Shown here: positions 2,334 through 30,034 of the stretch, one piece after another
Layout: every line of letters starts with the position of its first letter
Position numbering within the stretch: position 1 is the first letter of the stretch
Origin: Terrimonas sp.
GTDB taxonomy: Bacteria; Bacteroidota; Bacteroidia; Chitinophagales; Chitinophagaceae
Direction: 5' to 3'
DNA length: 64,000 bases
NCBI GenBank assembly: GCA_016125075.1
Contig: WGMO01000010.1
Span: 1-64,000 of the forward strand
Translations under genes and position numbers: made by a program
Notes under the pieces: model-generated
The model's database searches: none
Told to the model about the DNA's origin: nothing
Seen by the model: the letters and a program-made list of their open reading frames with translations, nothing else

Positions 2334-4268
2334 ATGATCAATATTACTTTTCCGGACGGGGCTGTTCGATCCTATGAAGCAGGGGTAACAGCCATTGATA
2401 TTGCCAAATCCATATCAGAAGGACTGGCAAGAAAAGTTTTGGCTGCGAATATCAACGGGCAGGTATGGGACGCAACCCGACCTATTCAGGAAGATGCTAC
2501 ATTAAGCCTCTTGACATGGGACAGCAAAGACGGGCAAAGCACTTTCTGGCATTCCACCGCGCACCTGATGGCAGAAGCAGTAGAAGACATGTATCCGGGT
2601 GTTAAATTCTGGGTAGGGCCACCGGTAGAGGGTGGATTTTATTATGACATGGATCTTGGAGACCGGAAGATGACAGAGGAAGACCTGCAGAAACTGGAAA
2701 AAAAGATGAACGAACTGGCCCGGCAAAACAATAACTATATACGAAAAGAAATCTCCAAAAAAGATGCTGTAGCTTATTTTACTGAAAAAGGAGATGAATA
2801 CAAACTGGACCTGCTCGAAAACCTGAACGACGGGGAGATCACTTTTTATACACAGGGAAGTTTTACGGATCTCTGCCGGGGGCCGCATATTCCCAATACC
2901 GGTTTGATCAAGGCTGTGAAACTGACAAATATAGCCGGAGCCTATTGGAAGGGGGATGAAAAGAACAAACAGCTCACCCGTCTGTATGGCGTGAGTTTCC
3001 CCTCTCAAAAGCAACTGGACGAGCACCTGCAGATGCTGGAAGAAGCCAAAAAAAGGGACCACCGGAAACTGGGCAGGGAACTCGGTATCTATACCATGGA
3101 TGAGGATGTGGGCCCCGGGTTGATCATGTGGATGCCCAACGGCACCGTGATCATCGAAGAATTGGAAAAACTGGCCAAAGAAACTGAAAATGCAGCCGGA
3201 TACAAAAGGGTGGTGACCCCGCATATTGCCAAAGAGAGCATGTACCTGACCAGCGGACACCTTCCCTACTATGCAGACAGTATGTACCCGCCCATGGAAA
3301 TGGAAGGGGAGAAATATTACCTGAAATCCATGAACTGTCCGCACCACCATAAGATATTTGCGGCAGAATCAAAAAGCTATCGTGATCTTCCGTACAGGAT
3401 AGCCGAATACGGTACCGTTTACCGTTATGAACAAAGCGGTGAATTGTTTGGGCTCATGCGGGTCCGATGCCTGCACATGAACGATGCCCATATTTACTGT
3501 ACGAAAGAGCAGTTTAATGATGAATTCCGTGCAGTGAATGACATGTATCTCAAGTATTTTAAGATTTTCGGTATCGACAAATATGTGATGCGGCTATCAT
3601 TGCATGCTCCCGAAAAACTGGGGGTTAAATATGTCAATGAACCTGTTCTGTGGACAGAAACCGAAGAAATGGTGCGCAATGTGCTCAAGGAATCAAATAT
3701 TCCTTATGTGGAAGTACAGGATGAAGCCGCGTTTTATGGCCCCAAGATCGATGTTCAGATCTATAGTGTTATTGGCAGGGAGTTTACCCTGGCTACCAAC
3801 CAGGTTGATTTTTCCCAGGGAAGGAGTTTTAAACTTGAGTATACTACCCAGGATAACAGTACCGATACGCCCCTCATCATTCACAGGGCACCGCTGGGTA
3901 CACATGAAAGATTTATCGGGTTCCTCTTAGAACATTATGCCGGGAAACTGCCCGTTTGGCTTTCACCGGTACAGGTGAAAATTTTGCCGATCAGCGATAA
4001 ATTTACAGAGTATGGCAAAACAGTTTTGCAGGAATTAAAAAAAGCTGATATTCGTGCAGAGATTGATGACAGGAATGAAAAGATCGGAAAAAAGATCAGG
4101 GATACCGAAATGATGAAAGTACCCTATATGCTGGTGATCGGGGAAAAGGAAATGAACGAAGGAAAGGTATCCGTCAGAAGACAGGGAAAAGGGGACTTGG
4201 GAGCGGTATCCATAGCCGAATTTTTGAACACTGTTTCAACGGAAATAAAAAACAGAAGTTCTTTATAA
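2334..4268 (+). CDS. thrS: Threonine--tRNA ligase
   Basis: Class II aminoacyl-tRNA synthetase charging tRNA-Thr in the cytoplasm. The 644 residues are typical for bacterial ThrRS. The order is an N-terminal TGS domain (residues 1-61), a second editing/SAD domain with HxxxH (HSTAHLMAEAV) and CxxxH (LCRGPH) metal motifs, the catalytic core, and the C-terminal anticodon-binding domain from about residue 540 (PVQVKILPIS). Zinc ligands of the core are visible as the Cys of MNCPHHH, the His of MNDAHIYC and the His of IHRAPLGTHERF. It is followed by infC at 87 bp, the common thrS-infC-rpmI-rplT order, and probably starts that operon from the TACCTTTG promoter. Confidence 0.97.
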   Translation: MINITFPDGAVRSYEAGVTAIDIAKSISEGLARKVLAANINGQVWDATRPIQEDATLSLLTWDSKDGQSTFWHSTAHLMAEAVEDMYPGVKFWVGPPVEGGFYYDMDLGDRKMTEEDLQKLEKKMNELARQNNNYIRKEISKKDAVAYFTEKGDEYKLDLLENLNDGEITFYTQGSFTDLCRGPHIPNTGLIKAVKLTNIAGAYWKGDEKNKQLTRLYGVSFPSQKQLDEHLQMLEEAKKRDHRKLGRELGIYTMDEDVGPGLIMWMPNGTVIIEELEKLAKETENAAGYKRVVTPHIAKESMYLTSGHLPYYADSMYPPMEMEGEKYYLKSMNCPHHHKIFAAESKSYRDLPYRIAEYGTVYRYEQSGELFGLMRVRCLHMNDAHIYCTKEQFNDEFRAVNDMYLKYFKIFGIDKYVMRLSLHAPEKLGVKYVNEPVLWTETEEMVRNVLKESNIPYVEVQDEAAFYGPKIDVQIYSVIGREFTLATNQVDFSQGRSFKLEYTTQDNSTDTPLIIHRAPLGTHERFIGFLLEHYAGKLPVWLSPVQVKILPISDKFTEYGKTVLQELKKADIRAEIDDRNEKIGKKIRDTEMMKVPYMLVIGEKEMNEGKVSVRRQGKGDLGAVSIAEFLNTVSTEIKNRSSL

Positions 4269-4325: not shown

Positions 4326-4345
4326 CTCCCAAGCAGGGATGGGAG
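4326..4345 (+). promoter_or_regulatory. Stem-loop just before infC
   Basis: CTCCCA and TGGGAG form a 6-bp stem with an 8-nt loop, 10 nt before the infC start. It could influence infC translation or be incidental; no T-run follows, so it is not a terminator. Confidence 0.25.
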
Positions 4346-4355
4346 CTTAAAATTT

Positions 4356-4961
4356 ATGGCAGTATCAAAAGGAGGATTTAAACCATCTGGTGGCGGTTTT
4401 AAAAAACCTGGTGGCGGTTTTGGAAGGGGCAGGTTTATGCCCCGCAAAGAAGCGGAACACCGGATCAACAACTTTATCAGGGTTCCTGAGGTTCGCCTCG
4501 TAGGCGAAAATATTGAAATTGGCGTGTACAGCACACAAGAGGCCCTTCGCATAGCGCAGGATCAGGGTCTTGACCTTGTGGAGATTTCACCGACAGCTAA
4601 TCCACCTGTCTGCAAAGTGATCGACTACAACAAGTTCCTCTACGATAAGAAGAAGAAAGAAAAGGAGATGAAGGCAAAAAGCAAAACCTCCGAAGTCAAG
4701 GAGATACGCTTTACACCCAATACGGATGAACATGATTTTGAGTTTAAATCAAAGCACGCAGAGAAATTTTTAAAGGATGGGAATAAGGTGAAGGCCTACG
4801 TACAGTTTAAAGGAAGAGCGATCCAGTTTAAAGACAGGGGAGAGCTTTTGCTATTAAAATTTGCTGAACGACTGGCAGAAGTGGGTGCCCTTGAACATAT
4901 GCCCCAGATGGAAGGAAGGCGAATGCATGCGATTTTTGTACCCAAGGGTAAGAAGAAATAA
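4356..4961 (+). CDS. infC: Translation initiation factor IF-3
   Basis: IF-3 binds the 30S subunit, prevents premature 50S joining and checks initiator tRNA pairing. Both domains are present: the N-terminal domain from RINNFIRVPEVRLVGEN (residue about 37) and the C-terminal domain from about residue 110 (KEIRFTPNTDEHDFEFK), joined by a lysine-rich helix. A Gly/Phe/Lys-rich N-terminal extension of about 30 residues (GGGFKKPGGGFGRGRF) precedes the conserved part. The start is an ordinary ATG. It shares the thrS transcript; a strong terminator follows, so rpmI-rplT has its own promoter. Confidence 0.96.
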   Translation: MAVSKGGFKPSGGGFKKPGGGFGRGRFMPRKEAEHRINNFIRVPEVRLVGENIEIGVYSTQEALRIAQDQGLDLVEISPTANPPVCKVIDYNKFLYDKKKKEKEMKAKSKTSEVKEIRFTPNTDEHDFEFKSKHAEKFLKDGNKVKAYVQFKGRAIQFKDRGELLLLKFAERLAEVGALEHMPQMEGRRMHAIFVPKGKKK

Positions 4962-4980: not shown

Positions 4981-5005
4981 AACCCCGGACTCCCCGGGGT
5001 TTTTT
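4981..5005 (+). terminator. Rho-independent terminator after infC
   Basis: A perfect 8-bp stem AACCCCGG/CCGGGGTT with a 5-nt loop is followed by a T-run, 20 bp past the infC stop. It separates thrS-infC from rpmI-rplT. Confidence 0.85.
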
Positions 5006-5103: not shown

Positions 5104-5111
5104 TATCTTTG
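5104..5111 (+). promoter_or_regulatory. -7 promoter box of rpmI-rplT (TATCTTTG)
   Basis: Perfect match to TAnnTTTG, downstream of the infC terminator and about 106 bp before rpmI. The long 5' leader this implies contains the structures listed next. Confidence 0.6.
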
Positions 5112-5117
5112 CGCTCC

Positions 5118-5190
5118 GTTTTAAAAAAGGATTTTAAAACGTATTTCCTGAAGAGGTTCAACAAGGGCTCCGGCTGAACGGGGACGCCTC
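5118..5190 (+). promoter_or_regulatory. Structured mRNA leader of rpmI-rplT, possible L20/L35 autoregulatory element
   Basis: Directly behind the inferred transcription start is a perfect 9-bp hairpin, GTTTTAAAA/TTTTAAAAC. Then GAGGTTCA pairs with TGAA and CCTC in two consecutive helices, and CTCCG in the loop can pair with CGGGG in the 3' bulge to form a pseudoknot. Leaders of this operon are known targets of L20 repression in other bacteria. That this RNA does the same is an inference from position and folding by eye. Confidence 0.4.
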
Positions 5191-5217
5191 AAGGGATTCA
5201 AATTAAAGCATAAAAAA

Positions 5218-5415: not shown

Positions 5416-5459
5416 GAACGCTCATCAATCAAATTGAATAACTCCAAACTTATTATTAT

Positions 5460-5804
5460 ATGCCTCGTTCAGTAAACTCTGCTGCATCAAAAGCCCGCAG
5501 GAAAAAAATATTAAAGAAAGCAAAAGGCTTCTACGGTAAACGCAAAAATGTTTATACGGTTGCCAAAAACGTTGTTGAAAAGGGTATGACCTATAGTTAT
5601 GTAGGTCGTAAACTGAAAAAAAGGAATTACCGCCAGTTGTGGATCGCCCGTATCAATGCGGCTGTAAGGGAAGAAGGCCTTACCTATTCTGAATTCATCC
5701 ACAAATTGAGTGAGAAAGGAATTGACCTCGATCGTAAAGTACTGGCTGACCTGGCAATGAACAACCCGGAAACATTTAAAGGGTTGGTGGCACAGGTCAA
5801 ATAA
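5460..5804 (+). CDS. rplT: 50S ribosomal protein L20
   Basis: The 114 residues carry the L20 hallmarks: the lysine/arginine-rich N-terminal helix ([17 protein letters not shown]) and the globular part with [19 protein letters not shown]20 binds 23S rRNA early in 50S assembly and in several phyla represses its own operon through the mRNA leader. It ends the rpmI-rplT transcript, with a strong terminator 30 bp downstream. Confidence 0.97.
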
Positions 5805-29644: not shown

Positions 29645-29650
29645 TATTTG

Positions 29651-30023
29651 CTGCAAACCGGGCTATCGCTCCATCCAGCGCTTGTCGAAGGTGGGGAGGA
29701 AAGTCCGGACAGCGCAGAGCAGTGCACCGGTGAAGAGCCGGGCCCCGGTTTCCGGGGACAGAAAGTGCCACAGAAAATAACTGTCCCGCCCAGGCGGGAT
29801 GAGGGTGAAAACGTGAGGTAAGAGCTCACGGCAGGTACTGGTAACAATATCTGCGGGTAAACCTTGCATGCTGAAATGCCACGTATAGTATCGTTTGAGG
29901 GCTGCTCGTCCAAGATACAGGGTAGGCAGATGGATCCCGGATGGCAACTTCCGGGACAGATAAATGATAGCGCCCGGGGTGCCTGGCACCACGAATCACA
30001 GAATCCGGCTTACAGGTTTGCAG
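29651..30023 (+). ncRNA. rnpB: RNase P RNA, class A
   Basis: The catalytic RNA of RNase P, which removes 5' leaders from tRNA precursors. Universal core elements are readable in order: GAGGAAAGTCCGG (CR-I), CACAGAAA, GGTAAGAGCTCACGG, AAACCTTGCATG with GAAATGCCACG, and near the 3' end AGATAAATGATAGC (CR-V) and ACAGAATCCGGCTTACAG. The ends are set by the P1 helix CTGCAAACC/GGTTTGCAG. A -7 box ends just before the 5' end and a terminator follows the 3' end. The track ORFs on the reverse strand across this region are artefacts. Confidence 0.96.
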
Positions 30024-30034
30024 TAAATGAACGG

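Follow-up and report, generated by a model that had tools for sequence, protein, structure and literature searches.

Autogenous control by the ribosomal protein L20 is known mainly from Escherichia coli and Bacillus. The irregular hairpin of the E. coli rpmI mRNA, called site 2, reportedly goes back to work by Guillier et al. in 2002/2005. In E. coli an irregular L20-binding hairpin has been reported between infC and rpmI, together with a long-range pseudoknot (site 1) and a promoter inside infC (PMC10931766). The L20_leader of Firmicutes (Rfam RF00558) lies upstream of infC with a terminator attached; L20 binds where its first two helices meet (PMC6097659), and it acts by attenuation (PMC6097659; PMC10931766). 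According to Eckert and Weinberg 2020 (PMC7247131), L20 leaders share an AA dimer and two G-C pairs in a row, and a deltaproteobacterial motif with both features has L20 as its predicted ligand. On the ribosome, the C-terminal domain of L20 binds the H40/H41 junction (PMC6962249). Among gut Bacteroidota, a 49-bp candidate, HMP2_39, has been described directly upstream of the L20 gene, mostly in Alistipes (PMC8040213). Unlike the E. coli leader, the rpmI leader analyzed here, from Terrimonas sp. and its relatives in the Chitinophagaceae, is predicted to be one compact hairpin with an outer helix (P1) and to have its own promoter.

The rpmI leader and its locus

The features of the locus are given below in coordinates of the window, i.e. 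the whole 64,000-nt stretch of Terrimonas DNA that was analyzed.

2334-4268: thrS, upstream of infC
4356-4961: infC, after thrS and followed by a terminator-like hairpin
4981-5001, + strand: intrinsic-terminator-like hairpin 3' of infC, 8 pairs (6 GC), then TTTTATTATT
5104-5111, + strand: putative -7 promoter box TATCTTTG, TAnnTTTG type of Bacteroidota
5117-5141, + strand: optional 5' hairpin of 10 bp (5117-5126/5132-5141), sequence not conserved
5146-5149, + strand: P1 5' strand UCCU
5153-5157, + strand: P2 5' strand GAGGU, with the invariant GG at 5155-5156
5163-5165, + strand: internal-loop AAG (invariant AA and a G), the putative point of contact with L20
5168-5172, + strand: P3 5' strand CUCCG
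5173-5178, + strand: P3 loop GCUGAA
5179-5183, + strand: P3 3' strand CGGGG
5185-5190, + strand: near-invariant C (5185) and P2 3' strand GCCUC
5193-5196, + strand: P1 3' strand GGGA, ending 21 nt 5' of the rpmI start codon
5218-5415, + strand: rpmI (bL35)
5416-5459, + strand: rpmI-rplT spacer of 44 nt, lacking the module seen at this place in other Bacteroidia
5460-5804, + strand: rplT (bL20), proposed regulator, 48% identity to E. coli L20

The TAnnTTTG box has been placed at -12 to -5 (PMC9723704), and with this spacing transcription would start at about position 5116 and give a leader of about 102 nt, in agreement with the dedicated promoter and the leader of about 100 nt put forward in an earlier, sequence-only reading of this DNA. 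A box of the same type stands 5' of all 100 aligned leaders (see below). The hairpin at 4981-5001 parts infC from rpmI-rplT, and is weak on its own, with an average of 1.3 terminator-like sites per shuffled sequence. The infC leader has a hairpin as well, CTCCC/GGGAG at 4326-4345, ending 10 nt 5' of the infC start codon. Elsewhere in the window, at 29650-30028, lies an RNase P RNA of bacterial class A (RF00010, 236 bits).

The leader is predicted to fold into one irregular hairpin, consisting of the outer P1, P2 with its invariant GG/CC, an internal loop with the invariant AA, and a covarying P3, and the centroid of the single-sequence fold of the window leader is already this P1-P2-P3 hairpin. 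Across the family, the P3 loop is often a C-N-G-U tetraloop. The distance from the predicted start site to P1 ranges from 2 to 79 nt. Where the segment 5' of P1 has at least 12 nt, it folds at -4 kcal/mol or below in 61 of 73 leaders, with a mean of -8.6 vs. -3.2 kcal/mol for shuffled sequences; in the remaining leaders, where this segment is short, the RNA begins almost at P1. The 10-bp hairpin of the window is one case of this optional 5' element. A different small hairpin, TAATC...GATTA or TAACT...AGTTA, occurs with compensatory variants a few nucleotides 5' of the ATG in 45 of the 100 leaders (e.g. L034, L016, L019 and L064); a hairpin of the TAATC...GATTA type 5' of the start codon is absent in the window leader.

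Distribution and covariation of the leader

Judged by L35, the named bacteria closest to the window are Chitinophagaceae, e.g. Terrimonas, Segetibacter and Ferruginibacter. Of the relatives in which rpmI could be detected, 17 other members of the family with a close L35 have an obvious core 5' of rpmI, and more distant ones have short leaders. A covariance model (R1) built on 18 Chitinophagaceae leaders, that of the window among them, matched exactly once in 207 of the 299 Chitinophagaceae genomes, representing 75 of 104 genera; in 396 genomes sampled across the class it gave ten matches, all of them in Chitinophagaceae. On named contigs the element is present at 38 of 69 loci, and its carriers include Ferruginibacter, Segetibacter, Terrimonas, Hydrotalea, Sediminibacterium, Flavisolibacter, Flavitalea and Foetidibacter. 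The conserved fold lies directly 5' of rpmI in all 100 aligned matches, with the end of the model 9-14 nt from the start codon, which bears out the earlier view that the rpmI-rplT operon has a structured leader. No family in Rfam 15 matches the rpmI leader. The loci of 18 family genomes without an R1 match were read directly; their rpmI leaders are short, except for L276, and gave no significant match to R1 or to R2, the model of the rplT-spacer element described below. The exception, L276 (genome G082), is sister to the leader-bearing clade in the small protein tree described below; its rpmI leader is unusually long and contains other hairpins, possibly an intermediate or diverged form.

The proposed pairs hold in 91.6% of cells of the aligned leaders, and the covariation score is 0.438, vs. 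0.05-0.11 when partners are slid by 1-3 columns. Compensatory changes in homologous leaders, the check which the sequence-only reading had itself proposed, were found in abundance, with both sides changed in 206 cells vs. 56 in shuffles. We also used a tree-based null, in which the inferred substitutions are re-placed along a tree built from the same short alignment. Under it all six pairs of P3 are significant (E about 5e-7 to 0.009) and those of P1 are not (E about 0.4 for the best one, 14-71). Separate support for P1 comes from a strand-swapping test, in which 0 of 200 permutations paired as well as the true partners; P1 is paired in 86.1% of cells, with both-side changes in four of five pairs. 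The GG/CC of P2 is paired in 99 of 99 distinct sequences without any substitution in these columns on the tree, so that, being invariant, the main P2 pairs add no covariation support; the third P2 pair (CG/UG/UA) covaries. The three AAG positions have 0, 0 and 1 inferred substitutions in the 99 sequences, vs. 35-46 in flanking columns, and the C before the 3' strand of P2 changes once. The leader element is real, and its comparative signal is far above chance.

Several helices had been proposed from the window sequence before these alignments. GAGG/CCTC (5153-5156/5187-5190) is P2 of the conserved structure and CTCCG/CGGGG (5168-5172/5179-5183) is the covarying P3; both pairings are supported, in a structure that differs from the proposed one. 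The hairpin thought to be a perfect one of 9 bp at the 5' end exists, with 10 bp, as an optional feature whose sequence is not conserved. A TTCA/TGAA helix (5157-5160/5175-5178) had also been suggested; its columns pair in 47.3% of cells vs. 47.5% in shuffles, and the possible pseudoknot that depended on it is thus a coincidence of this one sequence. Pairing of the P1 5' strand with a GGTA-like sequence before the ATG, as a fold switch, was rejected likewise, since own pairs were no better than swapped ones (194 of 200 permutations as good). With these two candidates examined, a conserved pseudoknot of the site 1 type was not found, neither this pairing with the start region nor the loop helix being supported.

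A related module before rplT

Scanning other Bacteroidota for the module placed it in the rpmI-rplT spacer at 23 of 56 loci, vs. 3 of 1120 shuffles. A model of this rplT-spacer element (R2) matched 57 of 392 genomes of the class, and the 30 matches fetched all lie in the rpmI-rplT spacer, 9-15 nt 5' of rplT (for three loci ending at a contig end, placement was taken from the match start). The alignment of the 57 sequences gave a covariation score of 0.681, vs. 0.09-0.15 with slid partners, and 158 vs. 52 both-side changes, i.e. strong covariation. The element occurs in named Bacteroides, Parabacteroides, Flavobacterium and Sphingobacterium records and has the same GG/CC plus AAG core (e.g. L132:2230-2286, L240:1935-1989 and L131:2249-2299). 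It has no family in Rfam 15 and is probably an L20 leader of Bacteroidia. HMP2_39 is probably related to it: in size and place the candidate fits the element of Bacteroides and Parabacteroides, and may be the rplT form of the module, while its position before the L20 gene differs from that of the rpmI leader.

Three loci of a sister family in the same order (L291, L292 and L293) have a spacer hairpin, AGG-n-AAAG-[stem]-C-CCU, next to a long outer stem of complementary strands; this may be a third variant missed by both R1 and R2. Directly 3' of rplT, Bacteroides and Parabacteroides carry the Bacteroidales-1 RNA (RF01693), a suggested 6S RNA (L240:2520-2697 and L239:2474-2651).

In a looser scan the module was found in 1 of 166 spacers of genomes bearing the rpmI leader vs. 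56 of 84 other spacers; the latter include loci brought in by R2, and the unbiased figure is the 23 of 56 given above. R2 had no match in the genome of the window, and neither element was found in the examined family genomes without the rpmI leader. In a small tree of L35 and L20, both short proteins, the leader-bearing genomes form one clade within Chitinophagaceae, which is consistent with loss before rplT and a single gain before rpmI. The module seems to have shifted its position in the operon. With an about even chance of being right, a broader account would be that Bacteroidia possess a portable L20-binding module imitating rRNA, which ancestrally stood before rplT and let L20 control itself alone, was lost in Chitinophagaceae, and was re-established once before rpmI, where it would control L35 and L20 together; as the ribosomes are Shine-Dalgarno-independent, repression would have to block the start region in another way.

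Likeness to L20-binding sites and putative mode of control

The core of the Chitinophagaceae leader can be written GGY-n-AAG-[P3]-nC-RCC. The rpmI leaders of E. coli, two Vibrio, Aeromonas and Proteus have GGC-n4-6-AAG-[stem]-C-GCC between infC and rpmI, i.e. the elements of site 2 in the same order and likewise 5' of rpmI. The likeness is one of the core only and not of family membership, as R1 gives no match with the leader of E. coli. Since the bare pattern also occurs in 1-10% of shuffled gammaproteobacterial leaders and is thus not rare by chance, it is the combination of position, invariance and recurrence that carries the argument. RF00558 of Firmicutes also has AAG-[stem]-C-GCC paired to GGC; in contrast, its GGC is on the 3' side, a permuted arrangement. 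RF00558 has no match at the window locus and none above the gathering threshold in 198 Bacteroidota genomes (best score 38.8 vs. 58.7); the sub-threshold matches are scattered, with several in some genomes, and were taken as chance.

The Rfam 23S consensus reads ggc-U-aAGUG-[H41]-UcAA-gcc at the helices which we take to be H40/H41. The 23S rRNA of the window itself keeps UAAGU but has AGU/ACU instead of GGC/GCC at the matching H40 pairs. Both features said to be shared by L20 leaders are present in the Chitinophagaceae leader (GG/CC in 99 of 99, AA without substitution). The deltaproteobacterial motif has them too in a different lineage and scaffold (PMC7247131). The suggestion that a Bacteroidota leader might be a distinct solution therefore holds in part: what is new is the compact scaffold, the lineage and a similar module before rplT in most other Bacteroidia examined, while the binding core looks like the known kind, resembling the rRNA-mimicking module of gammaproteobacteria and, permuted, of Firmicutes.

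On these grounds it is likely that the leader mimics the H40/H41 docking site and that L20 represses its own operon. Taken by itself, L20 as the ligand is quite probable, and the presence of the module before rplT in other Bacteroidia points the same way; translational repression is the mode that we favour with somewhat less assurance. Over its first 100 nt the rpmI-rplT mRNA would fold into the irregular hairpin, whose middle part (GG/CC stem, AAG loop and P3) would imitate the bL20 docking site on 23S rRNA. L20 in excess of free rRNA could then bind the hairpin and lock P1-P2-P3, with the 3' edge about 20 nt 5' of the rpmI start codon, so that loading of the 30S subunit on rpmI would be hindered and, by way of the shared transcript, both L35 and L20 lowered. 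The ribosomes of Bacteroidia work without Shine-Dalgarno pairing (PMC9976891), and in Flavobacterium johnsoniae initiation is tuned by structure at the start site (PMC6847099).

It is improbable that the leader binds L20 and promotes premature termination of transcription, as in Bacillus subtilis. The Firmicutes leader sets a precedent, but in the window the hairpin is followed by neither a terminator nor a T-run, and the 9-14 nt between model end and ATG leave no space for a terminator in any of the 100 aligned leaders. Translational control is favoured because of this missing T-run and the short, fixed distance to the ATG. Equally improbable is a hairpin that stabilizes the mRNA or serves as a ribosome standby element with no protein ligand: its place at the 5' end of the transcript or close to it, often behind a second hairpin, would suit such a role, but an unpaired AA that never varies, and a G and a C that hardly do, are unexpected for a mere stem. 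That bL35 or another ribosomal protein is the ligand instead of L20 is slightly less probable still; although rpmI is the immediately downstream gene in Chitinophagaceae, other Bacteroidia have the module before rplT, and known L20 sites have a similar core. That an ordinary leader folds in this way by chance can practically be dismissed, for although the folding energy of the single window leader is ordinary (z -1.74; 10 of 200 shuffles fold equally well), hundreds of genomes carry the element at one locus each with strong compensatory change.

If the leader is indeed an L20 site, the two related elements, both absent from Rfam, would extend L20 control to Bacteroidia, among them Flavobacterium and Bacteroides, which are genetically tractable, and Shine-Dalgarno occlusion cannot be the mechanism there. 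The same GG/CC plus AAG core recurring in different scaffolds would be a test case for convergent mimicry of rRNA. The apparent relocation would offer a natural comparison of how moving a regulatory RNA within an operon alters which proteins are coupled.
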